This document shows positions 18,184 through 53,153 of a stretch of 64,000 bases of DNA, in pieces. Source of the stretch: Protonemura montana (Eukaryota; Arthropoda; Insecta; Plecoptera; Nemouridae); NCBI GenBank assembly GCA_947568835.1, contig OX387606.1, positions 12,648,001-12,712,000 of the forward strand, given 5' to 3'. Made by a program: the position numbers and the translations under genes. Positions within the stretch are counted from its first letter, which is position 1; each line of letters opens with the position of its first letter. A model generated the notes under the pieces. It was not told where the DNA came from. It did not search any database and saw only the letters and a program-made list of their open reading frames with translations.

Positions 18184-18262
18184 GTATTCTTAGGAACACT
18201 ACTCTCAAAAATTGATGCCCAAAAGGGGAATCGAACCCCGATCTCCACCTGACGTGTGTGTT
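18184..18262 (-). mobile_element. tRNA-derived SINE fragment (inverted partner)
   Basis: Read on the minus strand this contains a tRNA-like box B (GGGGTTCGATTCCCC), then the family's linker TCAATTTTTGAGAG and the start of its tail. The tRNA head is cut off before box A. It faces the next SINE copy on the plus strand. Confidence 0.7.
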
Positions 18263-18380
18263 TACAATAAAATCATCTCGATAGTTAGTATGTGTCCAAG
18301 TAGCTAAATTGGTTAGAGCAACACCCGCGTCATGTGGAGATCGGGGTTCGATTACCCGTTTGGGCATCAAGTTTTGAGAG
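18202..18380. repeat. Inverted repeat made by two SINEs
   Basis: Arms of about 53 nt at 18202-18254 and 18328-18380 are near-perfect reverse complements. I count three mismatches in the central 41 positions. About 73 nt of spacer separates them. Transcribed in either direction it would fold into a long hairpin. Confidence 0.8.
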
Positions 18381-18440
18381 GTTAATAAATACCCCGCGCA
18401 TTACAAGCGTTTGCAATTTAAATCAGATTTCACATATAAA
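18290..18440 (+). mobile_element. tRNA-derived SINE
   Basis: This is the most complete copy. The head at about 18292-18368 has a box A-like segment (GGTTAGAGC in the D-arm), a box B (GGGGTTCGATTACCC), and ends that can pair as a seven-bp acceptor stem including wobbles. After it come a TCAAGTTTTGAGAG linker and a tail containing GCATTACAAGCGTTTGCAA. The same tail occurs in the copies at 22.1 kb and 43.4 kb. I call it a SINE rather than a tRNA gene because the D-stem is broken, a shared non-tRNA tail follows, and diverged copies exist. Confidence 0.75.
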
Positions 18441-21580: not shown

Positions 21581-22080
21581 CCACCTCGCGGTAAGCGGGG
21601 CCGTAAACCTTGATTTCACCACTGGCTAGTAAGGGAATGTCACCGATAAACAAATTAAAAATATTTTATGATTAAACGCATTAAATGCGTAAGGGTGTAC
21701 ATCGCACCTTGATAAGCAAATTTTCAGACTAACCATTCTGCCCAACCGAATGGACCTACCGGCCCTAATCGAGTATATCGTAGATATTTGGGACACACAG
21801 AAAAGTTTTTTTTCCAATTTGACTTACCAGTGATGCGCATAGCTCATAGCTTGGTTCAAAATACAAATTTTCGTTGAATGTCGGTAAGTCGAGATAAAAA
21901 TCGATAAGGGGCTCAGTTCCCTTTTTCCACGATATTACTAGAATATTTTTGGTTTTAATTAAACGGTATACAGTTATGGTTTGTCTGCAAAAATTAACCT
22001 GTTTGTCACAACTGTAAAATACAACAAATTATTTGATTTAAAATCCATCAGTGGCCTAAAGATTGAAGCTCGACGATTCT

Positions 22081-22198
22081 GTGAAATCTGATTTAAATTG
22101 CAAACGCTTGCAATGCGTAGGGTATTTTATTATTAGGAACACTACTTACCCTCTTAAAAATTGACGTCCAAGCGAGGACTCGGACCACGGTCTCCATA
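22081..22198 (-). mobile_element. tRNA-derived SINE, 5' truncated and diverged
   Basis: It has the same tail as the copy at 18290-18440 (TTGCAAACGCTTGCAA core, then TATTTTATTATTAGGAACACTA on the plus strand), the TTAAAAATTGA linker and a decayed box B (CCGAGTCCTCG on the minus strand). Box A is missing. It appears to be an older copy. Confidence 0.65.
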
Positions 22199-35005: not shown

Positions 35006-38000
35006 AGATGGCTGGAAAGGACGCATGTGAAAGGGGTTCCTTTGCGTTTGGGCGCATACGATGGAGCCACTAGAAGATGGTTTCACAGAAGGGAACCCAG
35101 CGACGACCTATGCGTCCATGATGGGGACTCTGGGTCTACGCCATGCAGCCAGTAAAAGATTCCACCACTAAAATACCATTTCGAACAAATACCGCTATTA
35201 TTAAATACCTTCACTAGGAGAAACCACCACTATCAGATACTATCACTCAGCACGTACCGCCACTATACAAGACGGCACCTCGAGAAGGTACACAAACTGC
35301 CCACGCGGGTCTGATGGTCACAAGTCGCTGTGGATCGCGATAATTAAGTCTCGGTCACCTACACTGAACCCAGGGCAACACGCCCAAGCGTGAGCCCACG
35401 CCTCACCAGGCACCGTCGCCGCTGCCACAGTCGCGCCTGCAGACGAGGTATCGGTAAATAATTGATTCGAACAATCACTTGGATAATCAATATGGATGGG
35501 TGGGTTCTGGAATGTGGAATCAGTGTCCGTTGCCGACGCCGCTGAAGAGGCAGGGAAATGAGGACGCACTTCAATTAGAGCTGAAAGGGTTTATGATTCA
35601 GGGGGCTGGAGGTTTGAGGAATAGCTTTTGTTGACGAAGGAAATTGGTCAGAAAGGAAGCTCGTGATGCAGAGGAGGAACGGATTGGTTATGTCTCGCTT
35701 GTTATGTGAAAATTTATAATCCATATTGAATGAAGATTCTGAAAAAGACTATTTTTGAGCAAATTTTCTGATAACTGTACAGGTATGGCCAGATACAATC
35801 TCCATAATCTGCTTAGTCCTGGGTAATTATTATAGCGTCTTGGGGCTCATTTTTCCTATCGTGAAGATGAAAAACCCAATGAAACTTTTCTCAGTTAATG
35901 CAATTGATTTGTGGTGTTTGGCGTCGGACAATGAGTATGTAATGCTAATATAGGCCCCAGCAAAGTGTTACTTCAGTTATGTTACGAGAACTGGACGTGT
36001 TAGCCAACTAGTCCGATTGGCTGCAAAGAAATTAACCGACCATTTATTCCAAAACTACAAGAGAAATTTGGGACGGCACCATTATACTCCGTTCAGCGAG
36101 AGAACATACTTTTCTGGCAGAGGCGTCACTGGTCGTTGCGAGATGTCACGCGGGCCAACTGTAATGAAAAAAACGCTAAAAATAATTTTCCTTTTGCTCT
36201 GAATCTTTTGTCGTGCCAAGAAAATTTGTTTTCTACCATTCGTAACTATCGTAATAATTATTTTGGATATATAACAAGTATTTTGAAATCCAGGCATTGA
36301 TTTAAAAGCCAGTCATATTTCAGTCAGTTTCATAGAGGGAAATCCTTGCGCTGGTATTTTCTCTCAGGGGCTAGACTGTTCTTATGTTTACGTCCACACG
36401 GTAACTGGTTTGTAAGAGTAATTCTGTTTAACCTTAAGTTGCTGCACATTATCGCGATATCAGCTCCATTTCGTTGTATTCCTACAACCCTTTACGATTG
36501 CCTGCCATTCGATACCAAAATTTTCAATTAAATTCCTAAATAACCTTTTTAATCCATTACAAGCACAGAGAATAGTGTTTGCCCCAGAAATACAGAAGCA
36601 ATAACAAATTAGAGAGGCGTAACTCTCAAACTTCCAATAGTTATTGCAGCGATAGATTGTCGCTACTTGCATGTGGACTTCACTTGTAGGGTAATAAAAA
36701 TGCAAGTAAAACATCAGTTCATAAAAAAAATATGGACCACAATCCTATGGTCAAACGCCGGTTAGCGGTTGACACCAATGCACTGGTCTGAATTTTCCTG
36801 TCTCTATTTATTATGAAGCCATTTTGTGTTCACGTCGGCCAGTGCATAATTTATACAGTGATGAGTATGAGCGTGGTGGAGGCTGACACCGAGAACACAA
36901 CACAACCATGTGTTGCCAATCACGAGCTGGACAGTTCGGTTCGCTCTGCCTGCTGTATTTACAATAGTATATTATACACAAATGAGCAAAATCGGCTGCC
37001 AAGCCTAACCGCATGTACGATAAATTTAGTGCGATATCATAATCCATTGATACTGTCTCATTAGCAGAGGATAACTAAAACTTCCACAAAGTATTATTTT
37101 CTGTGGCATACTAACTAACTCACAGTTATGTCACCCATTATAGCAATTTATTGAATTCGGTTTATTTGAAAATGTCCTAGTGTAGAAGGCGTCGTATCGT
37201 ATACCTTTTGTGCATACAATGTACATGGGTCAAGTCGACGAGGTGTTATCACTTCCATCCAATTTACAATACCAGAAGTGGTAATTGAGGATTGGTTATT
37301 CCTGAGCATTGATTTACTGAGTGCATGCAGACACATACTCCTGCATTTCCCAGTAATAAAGTTATCATGATTGAAAATAACAAACTCATTGTGGTTTGTG
37401 CACGACATTGAGTGGAAAATGTATTGCCAGAGTGTGCCATCTAGCGACAAATGTTTGACCTTCTGGATTCACGCTGCTCTGTTCTGACAGCAATTCATAA
37501 ACTTCGACACGACTGATATCAGTTTCTTTACGAAATCGTGGCTTTTTTTTTGTGGAAATTCGATGCTAATTTGCTAGTTTTGCATGTGCATTTCTTTTGT
37601 AGTAACGTTAGGAGATGAAATCGCTACGCAACTTTGAGGACGGTTGTGCGTATAGGATGCTGATTGTTTTCTGGAATACCATTTCGCCCTTTGGGAGTGA
37701 AACCTGTCATAAGGTGACTGCCTGCTGCATGACTGTTAACCATGATGAGTACATGATCCACCTACCACCTACCTAACTGTCTGAGTTCCAACGTCAAACC
37801 TCTCAATCACCCCGCAAGGCAGCGCCAGAGAACGAAACAACTCGCTGTAATTATTTGTACAAACTACAAAGAAATAACAAGCAACGCTAACAATCAATCA
37901 TTGCAACTGAAATTATCTAGCGATGCAAATGAACATATTATACTTGCGCTGATTATGTTGAAGTTTTTGCAGATTAGGTTCTGTAACTTATGTACATACC

Positions 38001-42503: not shown

Positions 42504-44243
42504 TCAGGCGACAGGTGCATACTGTTTGCAAAGCTGCCCGAAATCGTTTTCTTTCTGCAAATACTCCTTCACGAACGGGTGGTCAGCGTATGAATCTTTC
42601 AGCTGGCTGAGGAATCGATTGGACACTTCGGGAGCTTTGCCCAAATGCTGGGAGAGTACGATCATGTTGATCAACGAATCGGGATTGTTGCTGTCTTTGT
42701 CAAGAGATTCTTGCAGAACAGATTCTGCTTCGTCGTATTTGGCCTGGCCAAGCAAGCACGCAGCCTGGCCGTTGAGTAGAACTGCTGTGCTGCCGTATTT
42801 GTCGTTCATCTCTTGGAAGATGTAGAACGCATCTTGAAGCCGGTCGCCTCCCTAGGAAAGAACCATCAGGGTAAGTGTGATAAATTCATCAACCTTTGTC
42901 ATGTAAGAGGTAACAATTCCTTGCCATTGCTATGTTGACCCAAGCTTGAGCCAATTGAGTTAGTGTGGCATCATCGTCTTTTTCTTGCATTACTTTTAGC
43001 TCTTTCAAAGCCAAATCGACACGATTTATTTTCAGATAAATCTGCAGGGTCAAGGCAGAACTGGAAAAAAATTAACAGAAAATTATCAAAATTCATTTTT
43101 AGAGTGAAATCATATGTTCTATGGTAGCTCTAGGGTATGACTGTAAAAGAAAGCTATTTTACATGAATTAGTACAAGCTATGGTTATTGTTTGATTTTAT
43201 TTGATGATTATATGATTACACAATTAACCAAAAAGGACACATTTTTATTATTATGAACACTACTACTGTCTCAAAAATTGATGCTCATAAGGGGACTCGA
43301 ACCCCGATCTCCACCCATCGTGGGTGTTGCTCTAACCCAATCACAACCATTCAATCTCGAGTAACTCCAATTTGACGTTGGATGCGTTATATTTATTTGA
43401 AATCTTATTTTAATTGCAGACTTGCAATGCTTGGGGTATTTTATTATGAACACTACTACGGTCTCAAAAATTGATGCCTTTTTGTTTTTTAAAGCTCATC
43501 ATGAAATAAAAAATTTCTCTACATATTTTTTATTTGATTGCTGTTTATTAATAATGAATTTAAGAAAATGCAAAATAGTGGAAATTTAAACCAGTAGATA
43601 CCATTCTAGTTGCTCAGCTTGATTGAGAATTCTGAGAGCAGAATCGTAGTTTTGTTCGTTTACATAGACTGTGGCAGCGACTATGATGAATGTGCGGCTG
43701 CTAACGTCTACGTTCCCAGCAGCTTGCTCATCCAACTTTGATACTAGAACATCTCTTTTAGGAGGATTCGCAAAGTATTCGGCCAAAAGTTTAATTGGTT
43801 GGAGTTCAGCTGGCGACGCACCGTGAATTTCATCAATGACAACACGATATTTCTTCTGAGCAATGTAGGCACGATAAAGAAATATGTCTCTTTCCACTTG
43901 TAGCCCAGGATTACTTGGCTGGAAAAAAGTGTTAACTTGAGTTAAGTACATGTTTAGGCTAACATTTTTGTAACTTTTGAATGAAGAGTTTACACAGCTA
44001 TTCAAGAGCTTATGATCTATCGTTACGAACGTCGATTGGATGGCATGGTCGCCATGGGGTTCGGCGAAATTATTACCATTGACCGATGGTTCTGTATGAT
44101 TTTAATTGGGTCTAACAGTATGTAACAAAACAAACGGTTACCTTCAATTTCTGAGCTTCATTTATACATTGCTGATAATTGCCCACATAAAATGAATTTT
44201 TTACGTCGAATAACTCGTCCACCTCACCCTGCTGACGTGCCAT
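42504..44243 (-). CDS. COPE: Coatomer subunit epsilon (COPI coat)
   Basis: Four coding exons on the minus strand: 44243-44142, 43918-43602, 43060-42925 and 42851-42504, which join in frame to 300 residues (family about 300-310). The start [23 protein letters not shown] matches the family N terminus; later anchors are [39 protein letters not shown] and the C terminus [16 protein letters not shown]. The protein is an alpha-solenoid of TPR-like repeats that binds alpha-COP in the COPI coat, which carries Golgi-to-ER and intra-Golgi vesicles. Intron 3 (42924-42852, 73 nt) has a GC donor (ATG|GCAAGG) and TAG acceptor; only this junction keeps the frame. Intron 2 holds SINE sequence in the sense orientation. 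It lies head to head with SCAMP, with start codons 257 bp apart. Confidence 0.95.
43242..43348 (-). mobile_element. tRNA-derived SINE in COPE intron 2
   Basis: On the minus strand: box A-like GGTTAGAGCAACACCC, box B GGGGTTCGAGTCCCC, the linker TCAATTTTTGAGACAG, and tail TAGTAGTGTTCATAATAATA. It lies in the sense orientation of COPE, between exons 2 and 3, away from the splice sites. Confidence 0.75.
43399..43478 (-). mobile_element. tRNA-derived SINE fragment in COPE intron 2
   Basis: A second copy of the same family 50 bp upstream (in gene direction) of the first. Only the linker and tail are present: GGCATCAATTTTTGAGAC, then TAATAAAATACCCCAAGCAT and TTGCAAGTCTGCAATTAAAA. The tRNA-like head is missing. 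It resembles a 5'-truncated insertion or a partial duplication of its neighbour. Confidence 0.65.
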
Positions 44244-46941: not shown

Positions 46942-48789
46942 TCAAACGAGCACGGTAGCAAGGGGAAAAAGTCTACTATTTGGATGCCGACAGTGAACGC
47001 TGCTGGTATGCACATTGGTTTATTTTTTATTAGATGATTTTTTTTATTTCCTTGCGTCGGTAATGTGTTGCCGAAATTGTTGTCAATTTAAATAACTTAC
47101 ATGACGTCCATATTGTTATTTAGTTAACGAAAATACTACCTATGTTTTGTTTGGAGCTTCATTGTTGAAATCTGACCTCTTTGGAAGTTATAGGTACAAC
47201 TGTTGACTTCCCAGGTCTTGCTATGTTGGACAAGTGGGGTATATGTTAATTCGGAAAGCCAGGTTGACTTCGCAATTAACTATCAAGTTGAGATAAAAAT
47301 TTATCACAGAATGCTTATTATAACATTTCTAACTACAATGAACTTGTATGAATCAGCCACATAATATAGTGAATGATAAAAGCTTATTTACATTTCAATG
47401 CCAGTTGACTGATCCAAATTAGACGTGAAGTAGCAAATATTATGTTAAACTAGTATGTACACGTAATAAATGTTGCACTTTGTAATAATTCTTCGACCAT
47501 TCTCCTCAATTATAACTAAACTAAGTATTGATAAAGTATAAATATGAAATTATGGTTACTTTATTATTTATTGGGGTATTATTTTGAATACTACTGTAAT
47601 TATATTTATAATGTCAATCAAACTGTATTAGTCATGTTTTTTTGAATAAATATAATATGAATTTCAAGTGCATGGCATTTAGTGTAGTATTTTATGTTGA
47701 AAAACTGAATTTAGCTAGTTATAAGAGATAGTTAAAAAAACAGTTGTTTTAAAAGGGAAGAGGAACCAGGAAACGTGTGACGACTTACGTTGTTTCCTTC
47801 ATCCACTTCTCAGAACCCTTAGAACGCAATATCATTGGGCCAGAGTTCAAAGTACCAATCCCTGTTTGGAACACTGCATTAAGATCCTAAATGCCTGGTT
47901 CAGTGAAAATTGAAGCAAGGAACGAAAGTGATGCCTTGTTACCGAGCTTCCAGAGCAGTGCTACCTCCAACAGGGTTGGAGTTGTCAGGTGGGCAATGCG
48001 GGGAAAACATTGATCACCGCTCCACAATCAACAGCAATTAAATGATGTCAGAACATGGGGCTACAGCTGACCTTCTGCATAGGCTTAGTAAACCAAGCAT
48101 TAGGTTCGATTGTGAAGATATCGAAGTTGCATCCAAATCAAGGCAAAAATTCGATAGAGGAATTATCTTTCCCATCTCTTTAAACTGGCTAGGTCTTTGT
48201 TTCATAAAAGGTATGAATTGAAAGCCCTAACAATGCCAACATCCTATCCAAAGACTCTGTAACTTGCATCCTTATATCCAATTGTGAACCGCATGGGTAC
48301 TTTCAGGCAGGGAGTCTAACTGGAATCGGAGCCGAAAGATCCCAGAAAAAATAAAATATTAGCCCTTCCCAAATAGATGTGAATCGATTACCCTTCATAA
48401 CTCTGCCAGAATAACTGGATTGGAGCGAAGTATAACAATGGAGCCATTTTACCTTGTAACCATTACGCGAATTTCGGTCAAAGAGAAGGCAGATTTTGGG
48501 GCAAAACTGCATGGGAGACGTTCATTTGATGTAAGTTTGAGTGATAAATCTAGAACTTTCTATCTTCATTAAAACTATTATTGTTACAGAAATTTTGATT
48601 GCAGATCCAAAACCTTTTAACGTTTATTTTAAGAGCTTGCAACCAGAACCATTATTTATTTGGTTTCAGGTAACTGCTTTCAGGATATCTCAAAAAGGCT
48701 CACCAAAAAGTATTCACAACTCGCTTCATGTATAAGAAGTAGGGTGCAAGCCAATGTAATAAAACAATAGTAGAATTTAGTGGACCTCA
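46942..48789. other. SCAMP/RpS6 convergent intergenic region
   Basis: Holds the SCAMP 3' UTR, with AATAAA signals at 47465-47470 and 47645-47650, then about 1.1 kb in which I see no gene. The part at about 47750-48300 is less AT-rich but has stops in all frames and no recognisable RNA fold that I could confirm. RpS6 ends at the right side. Confidence 0.55.
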
Positions 48790-48795
48790 TTTATT
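48790..48795 (-). terminator. Polyadenylation signal of RpS6
   Basis: TTTATT on the plus strand is AATAAA on the minus strand, 33 bp after the stop codon. A short 3' UTR is usual for ribosomal protein genes. Confidence 0.7.
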
Positions 48796-48828
48796 TTCCA
48801 AATTTTTTTTACACGCTCCATATTCGAA

Positions 48829-51800
48829 CTACTTTGTTGACGGGGCAGCCGAAGACTTGGAATCGCGCATAGAGGCGGAGCGACGACGCTTCTGCTCCTC
48901 CTTGCGCTTCACCTTGGCCTCCTTGTGGCGCTGAGCCAGCAACTTGGCATAGCTGCTAGCCTCCTCCTTGCTCTTGAGGATACGCTTCCTCTTCACCGCC
49001 AAGCGGTGACGTTTGCGCTGTGAACAAAATACGACGCTCAAGCTGGAGGAACTTGCACAGAAAGTCATTTTGGGACAGCATTACATGGAACTTAAGTGTC
49101 ACCCTGATCTGATGAGCATAGCCAAGACTCAATTTGACTACCCAGAAAAGACTACATTTGCTTTTTATTATTATCAAGTCTCAAAAAATGATGCCCAAAT
49201 GGGGCCTCAAACCCCGATCTTCACCTATCGCGGGTGTTGCTCTAACCCATTGAGCTAAAAAGCAAAATTTGATTTACATTTTTTAAAAATTAAAAAACTT
49301 CGATTTGCTTGGTTTATTTCAGAATGCATGACTAGCCGACTTGGATCAGGTTTGCAGGACTCTTACAAATCTTTAAAATTAGATCTGCTACTTGCTACTT
49401 GGAAACAATTGACAGAATTTTTTAATGCTTTGAGATACACTACAATGCACTTCATGCAATTTCTGCCATACACAACAGGAAATCAATTCATACAGGTAGG
49501 TTTGTGTTCACCGTAATCTTCAAAAGAGACCAGAATATCCCTCTCAGAAGCACTCATTCTTTACGCACATGCTCACACACAGCGTTTACCAACCTTGAAA
49601 ACTTGTATTCCAATGCTAACGAGCCATTGCAAAGTACATGGCTCATTTTAACAAACGGAAATTTTATTTTCCACAAACAATAAACATCCCCAAGCTAGGT
49701 ATGCACTTGGGCACTGCCTGAGTGTGGCCTAATGTTAAAATTAACTTTCTTACCACAGCTTTTTATTTACTGCTAACCATATATTTATGATGTTCCCAAG
49801 CCCTAGCATGCAGATATCTGAAGACAAGCTGCACTTTCTAGTTGTTGGATTTAATTTTCCACAAACAATAAACATCCCCAAGTTTGATGTACACTTGGGC
49901 ACTGCCTGAGTGTGGCCCATTTAAATTGTTTACTAAACTATGGGCTAAATTGACCGATTGGAAGCTCTTTAAAATATGTTCCCAGTCCTTAGAGCACACA
50001 CCTCTCTAGTGAGAATGTGCAACTTCTAGAGACTGAAATTAATTTGCCACAAACATTAAAAATCCCCAAGTTTGGTATGCACTTGGGCACTGCCTGTGAG
50101 TGGCCAGCAATAATCCTTCTCCACGGAGTTCTCTGAGCAATGACATTCATGCTGCAACCTAGCCTATCTCTAATGAAAGTCTGCTCAAAACCAGCTCAGC
50201 TGTACAGCTCAAAAATTAAAAGTTCAGCCCAGAAAGACAGCAAACAAAGTCACAGAAATAGAAACATTTTTTGCAAGATCAATCAAAACTGTCTTTTTTT
50301 GCTCATTAACTTCCTTTGTATCATTCCATGCTCACAAGTGAAAGAAAGAAATAACAATATTATGGCAAAATAGTCGAGTCTTACATCCTGGTGACACAAA
50401 ACTTGAACACTATCTGAACTCAACAGACTAAAATCTCAACAGCGACTGGACCTTCGGGCATCTAGTACCACCACTGGAGTCTGGCTAGCCGTAACAGACT
50501 GCCATTACCAAGATGAGCTCAGACCACAGCACCAGAGAACTTGTGAATACATGATTGAAACAAACCTGCAGCGTTTGTGGGGTGATCAGACGCTGAATCT
50601 TAGGTGCTTTGCAGCGAATCTTCTTCTGCCCCTCCTTGGCAGGAAGAGGACGCTTGATGACATACGACCTCACATCATCTTCCTTGGTCAAGTTGAACAG
50701 CTTGCGGATCTTTGACGCTCGCTTGGGTCCCAGACGCCGGGGGACAGAGCTGTCGGTCAGGCCAGGAATTTCCTAAAACAGAAGGTAAAAGCTATTATAA
50801 AATATACCATAACAAGGTAGGGCTTTTTTAAGTCTGGTGGTTTAAGGTAAAATAAAATACATTTTGTACTTGTTGGTGCATATAATAACATGGTAATTTG
50901 TTCCAATATCCCATGTGGTAAGAAGCATCCTTCAATCTATGCAGAGACAGTACACATTCTGATATATTTACCAGAACGAATATGATCTGCATAATGGAGC
51001 AGGTTTGTTTAACCTCATAAATGTGTAGGTACACACAGAATACACACAGAATATACACAGAACACAGATTATAGGTACGCCATACATACCAGAATCCAAA
51101 GCCACTCTCATGTGCTAACCCAGAACTAAATTAAGCTGGCAAATTTGGAAATAAGTTATTACTTATAACGTTTCAACACTAGCTTTGAAGGGAAGTGAAC
51201 TGCACATTACCAAATGCAGGATTTAATGATAAATAACAAAAACCACTGTAACATTGTTGGTGCATAGAATAACGCAGCATATATGACCTCACATGCCATG
51301 TGGTAAGCAGCACCCTTTTGTCTCCACAGAATCAAATGCCACTCTGACACGAGATCAACCAGAACGAAATTGAACTGTGGATGATGAAATGTTTTCTAGG
51401 TTGAGTTGCCGAAAAAAATTAGTAAGTGTGATAGCAGTCTTTAGTAAATGTAAGATAGGTTAAGATTGGTGCCATACTACAAAAAGCCATGAACCTCTAT
51501 CTTTAACAGCACATTATGTTGTTTTAGAATACCATTTCAGGATATCAAGTCTGCTGATAATGTTGTATATTTTTACAGTTGGGTAATCAAGGCAGATGTA
51601 GGCACTAATTCTTTCACTTCTCACCTGCTCTCCTTTCTTGATGATGACCAAGGCCAGAACGCTGAGATTGGAATCAACAATACATCCACGGACTGACTTG
51701 CGCTTCCTCTCACCAGACCGTCGGGGTCGGTAGCAAGAGTGTCCTTTGGACAGCAACAAACGTACTCGAGCTGAAGAGGAAATATGGCGTTAAAAGCGGT

Positions 51801-52346
51801 TGGCAGTATGTAAATGGAAGCAGCAGTCGCAGCAGCTTGATAGAAACGTACTGTTTGTCAAGACTCCTTGCTTCATGGGGAATCCTTGCTTGTCGTTGCC
51901 ACCAGAAACTCGCACGACATATCCCTTCCATTCGTCACCGAGTAAATCAGCTTCAACTTCGGCTCCCATACGCTTGTCATAGAAAATTCTGAGCTTGTGC
52001 TCATCCACAACCTCAAAAAGTTTCTGACATCCCGTCGCCGGGAAGGACACGTTAAGCTGAAACAAACAATTATACGAAATGTAATAATAAGCATCATAGA
52101 GTTTGCCTAATAGTGTCAGATTATAACGTAAACAATTCGAAAATCATGGCCAGCAAAGCATGCCACTGAAGCCGAGCGAGGTGTGGAAGGAGATATTTAT
52201 CCGTCTATTTCTAACGCATCCCGATCTTTTCATTATATGGTTTTACATTTTAAGACTCTAAATAAATTGCCCAACAATATTTAACCCTAACCGATTTTCT
52301 AACCCGTGCCCACCTATGATAATTAAATGTATAAACGTACCTTCAT
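48829..52346 (-). CDS. RpS6: 40S ribosomal protein S6
   Basis: Five coding exons on the minus strand: 52346-52341 (only Met-Lys), 52056-51852, 51770-51625, 50772-50566 and 49017-48829, joining to 250 residues (fly protein about 248). Anchors are [70 protein letters not shown] and the C-terminal tail with [14 protein letters not shown]. Serines 235, 237, 241, 243 and 244 occupy the region phosphorylated by S6 kinase under TOR signalling. eS6 is part of the small subunit and an early 90S processome component. The tiny first coding exon is typical of the family. Introns 3 and 4 host five H/ACA snoRNA candidates on the same strand; intron 4 also holds a SINE. It is divergent from AP-3 beta. Confidence 0.97.
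49160..49262 (-). mobile_element. tRNA-derived SINE in RpS6 intron 4
   Basis: On the minus strand: TAGCTCAATGGGTTAGAGC (box A, with the GCTC/GAGC D-stem intact), GGGGTTTGAGGCCCC (box B with one change), then TCATTTTTTGAGAC and TAATAATAAAAAG. The tail is shorter than in other copies. It is sense to RpS6, between exon 5 and the snoRNA cluster. Confidence 0.75.
49601..49731 (-). ncRNA. H/ACA snoRNA candidate, triplet member 1
   Basis: Read on the RpS6 strand. The 5' hairpin has a lower stem CCACA/UGUGG, an internal pocket and a perfect upper stem CCCAAG/CUUGGG. A hinge with an H-box-like AAAAUA follows. The 3' hairpin has upper stem GAGCCA/UGGCUC and a short UUCC/GGAA lower stem. An ACA box lies at 49606-49604, 14 nt from the upper stem and 3 nt from the proposed end. 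About 131 nt in all, typical of the class. H/ACA RNAs bind dyskerin and direct uridine isomerisation. The 5' hairpin is nearly identical in the two other intron-4 copies; the 3' hairpin differs from them. Confidence 0.75.
49788..49919 (-). ncRNA. H/ACA snoRNA candidate, triplet member 2
   Basis: On the RpS6 strand the 5' hairpin has CCACA/UGUGG and CCCAAG/CUUGGG as in member 1, then an H-box match AAAUUA. The 3' hairpin has upper stem UGCAG/CUGCA and lower stem CCAA/UUGG. The ACA box (49793-49791, in GGGAACA) is 15 nt from the upper stem and 3 nt from the end. Its 3' pocket arms (CUAGAAA and GCUAGGG) resemble those of member 3 more than member 1. Confidence 0.75.
49974..50107 (-). ncRNA. H/ACA snoRNA candidate, triplet member 3
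   Basis: On the RpS6 strand the 5' hairpin has GCCAC/GUGGC and CCCAAG/CUUGGG, followed by an AAAUUA H box. The 3' hairpin has lower stem CAGUC/GACUG and upper stem GCACA/UGUGC. The ACA box (49979-49977) is 14 nt from the upper stem and 3 nt from the end. The 3' pocket reads UCUAAG on its right arm and CUAGAA on its left arm; these pair with the two sides of a conserved 18S rRNA segment (see findings). It lies closest to exon 4. Confidence 0.78.
50868..50995 (-). ncRNA. H/ACA snoRNA candidate in RpS6 intron 3, copy A
   Basis: On the RpS6 strand the 5' hairpin has a perfect eight-bp lower stem UAUGCAGA/UCUGCAUA and upper stem CGUUCUG/CAGAAUG. The hinge departs from the H-box consensus. The 3' hairpin has upper stem CAUGG/CCAUG and a lower stem GG(A)UGC/GCACC with one bulge. 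The ACA box (50873-50871) is 15 nt from the upper stem and 3 nt from the end. It is paralogous to copy B: the 3' pocket arms CUUACCA and UUAUU-UAU are shared. Confidence 0.72.
51252..51382 (-). ncRNA. H/ACA snoRNA candidate in RpS6 intron 3, copy B
   Basis: On the RpS6 strand the 5' hairpin has lower stem CCACAG/CUGUGG and upper stem CGUUCUG/CAGAGUG, 16 nt before an H box AGACAA (exact ANANNA). The 3' hairpin has a perfect lower stem GGUGC/GCACC and a long upper stem with one mismatch. The ACA box (51257-51255) is 15 nt from it and 3 nt from the end. Stem changes relative to copy A are compensated (for example UAUGCAGA/UCUGCAUA versus CCACAG/CUGUGG), which supports a functional fold. Confidence 0.78.
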
Positions 52347-53153
52347 CGTGCTATTATTGTCCAATAGTGTGTGCCATTTGCAAAGATCAGACACGAATCC
52401 CACAAGCACCGTTGCAGCGTTGCAAGATGGTAGCAGTTTGAACCCCGAATTACTACAAAATAGTTTCTTCACTTTACATTTTTTCAAAAATAAAATTTTA
52501 CATTCATTTTCAAATGATATGTGCTAAGATTTTGCGTTTTTTGTTATTTTTAATTATTAAAAGCGTAGATCAAACAATATTATTTCCCAGTCACAGCGTT
52601 GCCGGAATTTTACTACCCGCCAAATTTTTGTAATTGATCGGTGGTTCATTCTTCTGTGTGTATGATTTCAAGTGATTGAAAATAAGTCACACCAGAGCAT
52701 TAATAAGATCTTTGGTTTGAAGGCTTAAGTTTCTTTCGGATTGCACAATTAATGGGTGTTAGTTTTCCATGCAAATGTTACAGAGTTGGTAGCACCGAAC
52801 TCACCGGAAGGGGGTTCGTTCATCTTCGCCAGTTCGCCAGCCAGCCTGCTGTCATCTACCCAACATGACTTTCTGTCACACTGTTATTTTTGTAAAATTT
52901 TAACAAATTACTCTATCAAATCACGTATCAATTCAATGACATACTGAGTAAAGTTATTCGGATAAAAAATTAAATCAGGTAATAGCGGAGTTAAACATAA
53001 CCAATTTCTGCTCGTATGTCTTCTTATTAAACATTTCATTTTCCTTATTAAATAATCAATGGTCTATTCACTCTTTTATTAAGATTTAAGTTATATTGAT
53101 ATCAATGTTAAATATTTTTACTTGCAGGTTTTATAAGAATTAAAGATCTGAAA
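52347..53153. promoter_or_regulatory. Divergent promoter region RpS6 / AP-3 beta
   Basis: 807 bp lie between the two start codons. On the AP-3 side a 5' UTR intron is likely: a donor CAG|GTAATA at 52979 and an acceptor CTTGCAG ending at 53126 bracket a 148-bp intron just before the start codon. On the RpS6 side only about 50-100 bp of 5' leader is expected; I could not fix the pyrimidine-tract start typical of ribosomal protein mRNAs. The less AT-rich patch 52785-52860 may be the AP-3 first exon. Confidence 0.5.

Follow-up and report, generated by a model that had tools for sequence, protein, structure and literature searches.

The RpS6 gene of the plecopteran Protonemura montana carries, in two of its introns, repeated units resembling box H/ACA snoRNAs, and the question is whether these are intron-encoded guide RNA genes, how they are related to each other, and whether another kind of intronic sequence could account for them. 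Box H/ACA RNAs have two hairpins, a hinge, an ACA box and a spacing of 14-16 nt, and bind dyskerin, Nhp2, Nop10 and Gar1; the intron-encoded members are freed from spliced introns and guide pseudouridylation. The window analysed is a stretch of 64,000 nt from contig OX387606.1 (positions 12,648,001 to 12,712,000, forward strand), and all positions below are counted from its first nucleotide.

The host gene, RpS6 (eS6), occupies 48829..52346 on the minus strand, with five exons (52346-52341, 52056-51852, 51770-51625, 50772-50566 and 49017-48829). Joining these with a script gives an intact ORF of 250 aa, the product of which is a Pfam Ribosomal_S6e protein (E 3.5e-56) and matches the eS6 chains of solved ribosomes. 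The best of these matches is chain 4v6w_AG, which we take to be from Drosophila. Neighbouring genes in the window include one that is adaptin-like and one for coatomer epsilon. The units lie in intron 3 (51624-50773, minus strand) and intron 4 (50565-49018, minus strand), and a simple scan of all four RpS6 introns printed no box C/D candidates.

Five units of about 130 nt on the sense strand of introns 3 and 4 had been proposed in an initial annotation, and all five are located here, with lengths of 129-137 nt when the 3' edge is set at 3 nt past the ACA box. Group A is found in intron 4 and consists of A1 (49974..50110, minus strand; hinge AAATTAA, ACA at 49979-49977), A2 (49788..49920, minus strand; hinge AAATTAA, ACA at 49793-49791) and A3 (49601..49732, minus strand; hinge AAATAAAA, ACA at 49606-49604). 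Group B is found in intron 3 and consists of B1 (51252..51383, minus strand; hinge AGACAAA, ACA at 51257-51255) and its H/ACA-like paralog B2 (50868..50996, minus strand; hinge AGATTGA, ACA at 50873-50871). The units resemble the box H/ACA class in their two hairpins, hinge, ACA and 14-16 nt spacing. As previously proposed, four of the five hinges fit ANANNA (AAATTA in A1 and A2, AAATAA in A3, AGACAA in B1), but the H box consensus is not matched by AGATTG of B2. The distance from upper stem to ACA had been put at 14-15 nt, which holds for A2 (15 nt), for A3 (14 nt) and, in the B1/B2 consensus structure, for both B units (14 nt); in A1 it is 16 nt, or 14 nt with an alternative pairing. Additional to these five is B0 (51090..51138, minus strand), a half copy of the group B 5' hairpin lying between B1 and B2, which matches B1 by BLAST with 76% identity over 51 columns (E 1.9e-5). 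No 3' half of B0 is found by BLAST against B1 and B2, and the fold of the region (51143-51019) has a z score of 0.02. On its sequence, B0 is filed as a presumed relic.

Two hairpins per unit had also been claimed, and the minimum-energy sense-strand fold consists of two stem-loops in all five cases. Hinge and ACA tail are unpaired in each of A1, A2, A3 and B1, while the minimum-energy fold of B2 ties three bases of the hinge to the CAA of the ACA region, positions that are open in the B1/B2 consensus. The sense strand folds with lower energy than the antisense strand in all five units, and the z scores of the whole sense units against shuffles are -3.83 (A1), -1.71 (A2), -3.51 (A3), -0.77 (B1) and -3.24 (B2). 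Thus the fold of B1 as a whole is no better than that of shuffled sequence (42/200 shuffles as good), and A2 is middling (10/200). The antisense strand of A3 also folds well (z -3.48, beating all 200 shuffles), so energy alone does not select the strand at A3.

The two groups of paralogs are recovered by BLAST within the window, with E values of 3e-22 (A1-A2), 2e-17 (A1-A3), 3e-19 (A2-A3) and 9e-13 (B1-B2), in agreement with the grouping first suggested. No further copy is found elsewhere in the window at a comparable level (best E 0.14). In a direct-repeat search, the A copies stand in an exact 188-bp register and the B pair is found as two pieces. BLAST similarity stops at position 135 of 137 for A1-A2 and at 130 of 132 for B1-B2, close to the 3' end predicted at 3 nt past the ACA. 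In the self-comparison of the whole window, the A repeat is aligned through the spacer and the B match is prolonged by about 30 bases beyond the 3' end, which fits tandem or segmental duplication within the introns. The flanks of the units are mostly dissimilar: 5' flanks are at the level of shuffled sequence in all four comparisons, as are the 3' flanks of A1-A2 and A2-A3, and the 3' flanks of A1-A3 and B1-B2 are weakly similar (5/500 shuffles each).

Similarity is unevenly distributed between the halves of the units. The 5' hairpins of group A are 83% (A1-A2), 85% (A1-A3) and 89% (A2-A3) identical, with z scores of 12.5 to 13.5, and the similarity z scores of the 3' hairpins are 5.4 (A1-A2), 2.6 (A1-A3) and 1.0 (A2-A3). 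For the last pair 101 of 500 shuffles are as good, and thus its likeness is at the shuffled level. Despite this divergence, the A2 and A3 3' hairpins still fold and end in ACA. In group B it is the 3' hairpin that is kept better (74%, z 9.5, against 63%, z 4.7, for the 5' hairpin). Some of the changed halves fold strongly (A3 3' hairpin, z -4.8; A1 3' hairpin, -3.4; B2 5' hairpin, -5.3) and others are unremarkable (A2 3' hairpin, -1.99; B1 5' hairpin, -1.87). Low fold scores are also seen in the kept hairpins (-1.6 to -2.0 for the A 5' hairpins, -0.31 for the B1 3' hairpin and -1.39 for the B2 3' hairpin).

Covariation was compared between the paralogs within this gene. In the B1/B2 alignment, each of the 33 pairs is formed in B1 as well as in B2, and six are changed on both sides, in a structure that is derived from the same two sequences and so favours this outcome. 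When the partner strand is slid by 1 to 3 columns as a control, at most 56% of cells are paired, with at most one two-sided change; when the 3' letters are shuffled, the observed values are reached in 6 of 500 cases. In the A alignment, two-sided change is seen in 4 of 34 pairs, a break or gap affects 12 of the 34 in one or more copies, and the RNAalifold covariation term is unfavourable (+0.67). When the A1-A3 3' hairpins are matched by role, the lower and upper helices (named by eye) differ in their letters and are all fully paired.

Three fold-based scans differ in how far they single the units out. A minimum-energy scanner requiring an open pocket finds none of the five, and its six hits all come from shuffled sequence. 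A scanner with an explicit pocket, run without shuffles, gives 21 hits in the window, among them a single unit (A3, rank 8). A looser third test, tried after these two stricter ones, demands no more than two stem-loops without branches, a hinge and an ACA tail left unpaired, and is passed by 60 of 2515 ACA sites (both strands, with the first 135 nt of each excluded). Ranked by energy among these 60, without a shuffled control, A1, A3 and A2 take places 1 to 3 and B1 place 5. B2 fails the test at its own ACA and passes by way of a neighbouring ACA at 50867 (rank 10). ANANNA was flagged by this test in A1, A3 and B1, and not in A2 and B2. With 50867 counted as B2, no other place in the RpS6 introns passes among the matches listed (16 of the 33 minus-strand passes). 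As the stricter scanners fail and the ranking is made without shuffles, the evidence rests jointly on paralogy, on conservation of pairs and on the ranking in the third test. Outside the gene, other ACA sites with two stem-loops in the upstream 136-138 nt are seen at 36446 (plus strand), 38146 (minus strand) and 33858 (minus strand), most likely by chance.

The two-hairpin architecture, the hinge and ACA with their spacing, the sense orientation in a ribosomal protein gene and the pair-preserving changes between B1 and B2 together fit H/ACA snoRNAs. Judged from the sequence, A1, A2, A3 and B1 are very probably intron-encoded box H/ACA snoRNAs and B2 a close paralog with a variant hinge, all arising by duplication within the gene. 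By analogy with the class, the RpS6 pre-mRNA would be spliced, dyskerin (Cbf5) and its partners would shield each two-hairpin RNA in the excised intron, and exonucleases would trim the intron down to the particle. The pockets would then pair with rRNA, and the uridine in the pocket would be converted to pseudouridine. The layout of the repeats suggests that a roughly 188-bp unit in intron 4 was duplicated in tandem to give group A, and that group B comes from a duplication in intron 3. Group A would then have held its 5' hairpin near constant while the letters of the 3' hairpin changed, with hairpin and ACA box retained; in group B, the 3' hairpin would be the better-kept half.

Candidate rRNA targets were searched with all ten hairpins as guides, freely and then with limited geometry and 60 shuffles, and for five hairpins with 400 shuffles. 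The rRNAs are yeast and fly sequences, not those of this organism, and sites and scores refer to them. The 5' hairpins of A2 and A3 have a common best site at yeast 25S U819 (score 36), a score reached by shuffled guides in 34/400 cases for A2 and 7/60 for A3; U819 is not among the best four sites listed for the A1 5' hairpin. The 3' hairpins of B1 and B2 share as their best site the fly 28S equivalent of yeast U1890 (U1888 by spacing), with scores of 38 and 33 that are reached by shuffled guides in 11/400 and 45/400 cases, respectively. Reversing the rRNA lowers the best score of all five hairpins tested (to 30 for A2, 31 for B1 and 29 for B2), which favours the sites. Comparison of the B site with a list of fly pseudouridines is not supportive, as the best offset (4/13 matches) lands on no listed position; at a poorer offset (3/13), U1888 and U1890 fall on two listed positions. 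None of these scores stands convincingly above those of shuffled guides, and the 28S uridines corresponding to yeast 25S U819 (A2 and A3 5' hairpins) and to U1890 or U1888 (B 3' hairpins) are offered as tentative predicted targets.

Two further matches were set aside. The highest score of all, 39, belongs to the A1 5' hairpin at yeast U558 (6/400 shuffles), and is given no weight because U558 lies in a variable place of the rRNA. The B2 5' hairpin scores 33 (3/60 and 36/400 shuffles) and has U819 among its best sites, which is taken as chance. No convincing rRNA site is found for the 3' hairpins of A1 (50/60 shuffles), A2 (27/60) and A3 (28/60), or for the B1 5' hairpin (49/60).

An Rfam search of the window at gathering level finds no snoRNA family, its single match being a tRNA, and a search of 48700-52700 up to E 5 gives four matches, with no H/ACA family among them. 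The tRNA match (18294-18366, plus strand) is a member of a family of tRNA-like repeats, found at 49139-49257, 43225-43339, 43393-43477, 22077-22196 and 18185-18434, with 72-84% identity in most matching pairs and 97% in one short pair. The copies at 18202-18380 form an inverted pair, and intron 4 of RpS6 holds one copy of the family. No tRNA is reported by ARAGORN under the bacterial code, and the family is probably a SINE.

In searches of other collections, the core sequences of groups A and B have no match in viral contigs, and the RpS6 region has none in phages. The 18S motif is absent from the viral contigs, and the rRNA motifs are absent in two scans of genome collections. The 28S motif is found in two viral contigs with a short 28S-like end, at the start of the reverse strand of L001 and at the start of L002. 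The first 100-120 nt or so of each is presumably eukaryotic 28S rRNA-like and is followed by unrelated sequence, a layout that resembles that of chimeric assemblies; neither contig has an Rfam match at gathering level.

Three other explanations bear on this reading. The H/ACA ancestry could be real with just one gene per group still working (such as B1 in one and A2 or A3 in the other), the remainder being copies in decay. B0, being only a half copy, is what such decay would leave, as are the lack of ANANNA in B2 and the partial engagement of its ACA in the fold; the best target of A2 and A3 is not common to A1, and the A2 and A3 3' hairpins appear to be without sequence constraint (z 1.0). 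However, free decay is expected to break stems, and all 33 pairs are intact in B2, while the diverged 3' hairpins of A3 and A1 and the 5' hairpin of B2 fold well, with the z scores given above. Decay of all but one copy per group is thus considered unlikely, though it deserves to be weighed.

More radically, the units could be a tandem repeat or a small transposable element that folds by chance and yields no RNA product. The exact 188-bp spacing of group A, the SINE-like repeat in the same intron (intron 4) and the lack of discrimination by two of the three fold scanners are compatible with this. It is nevertheless very improbable, given that the window holds no comparable further copy, that similarity varies by half unit with 5' flanks at the shuffled level, that six B pairs are changed on both sides, and that the ACA is in place in all five units. 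Intron-mediated autoregulation is known for some ribosomal protein genes, and a location in the introns of such a gene would also suit structures acting in cis to tune RpS6 splicing or autoregulation without being released as free RNAs. A cis element would have no need of five copies ending in ACA, however, and a self-contained unit that recurs with its hinge, its ACA and a spacing of 14-16 nt is in keeping with H/ACA RNAs, so that this last explanation seems hardly credible. Intron-encoded H/ACA snoRNAs duplicated within the gene remain the preferred reading.

Multiple intronic clusters of box H/ACA snoRNAs were reportedly described in Drosophila melanogaster by Huang et al. in 2004. The RpS6 units are like these in being H/ACA units in introns, but unlike them in matching no Rfam H/ACA family. 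According to the part of PMC2246290 covered, the introns of 27 Drosophila cytoplasmic ribosomal protein genes host snoRNAs; RpS6 may be one of them, as that text leaves the genes unnamed. In Drosophila S2 cells, ribosomal protein genes are hosts for 30% (73/239) of expressed snoRNAs, according to the portion covered of a 2026 preprint (PMC13228274), the main text of which, to that extent, does not mention RpS6. In chicken, most snoRNA paralogs are reported, in the part of PMC2653536 covered, to stem from duplications within a single gene, and their guide functions to have been recombined or separated. The RpS6 units share with these chicken cis-duplicated paralogs a probable origin by intragenic duplication, and the chicken guide functions have been regrouped between snoRNAs. 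In contrast to the chicken paralogs as presented in that part of PMC2653536, RpS6 has several units per intron and one better-kept hairpin per group. Five H/ACA units of two families in one RpS6 gene had been suggested to be undescribed, a hint of novelty that is weaker than first made, as clusters of paralogs in host genes are already in print (PMC2653536, in the part covered). RpS6 is not named as a snoRNA host in the literature covered, which is no proof of absence. As H/ACA clusters are in print, the RpS6 cluster adds to a known arrangement, and is a good new example of it.

It is also possible, although doubtful at present, that the RpS6 introns serve as a local nursery for guide RNAs, in which one hairpin keeps an old rRNA site and its partner, freed in sequence but not in structure, gains new sites. 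If so, the variable hairpins of A1, A2, A3, B1 and B2 would guide different lineage-specific uridines, or targets other than rRNA. The locus adds an H/ACA cluster without a match to an Rfam H/ACA family, in a ribosomal protein gene that is unnamed as a snoRNA host in the portion of the literature covered. With a kept and a changed hairpin side by side in one RNA, it forms a small natural series on the origin of new pseudouridine guides.
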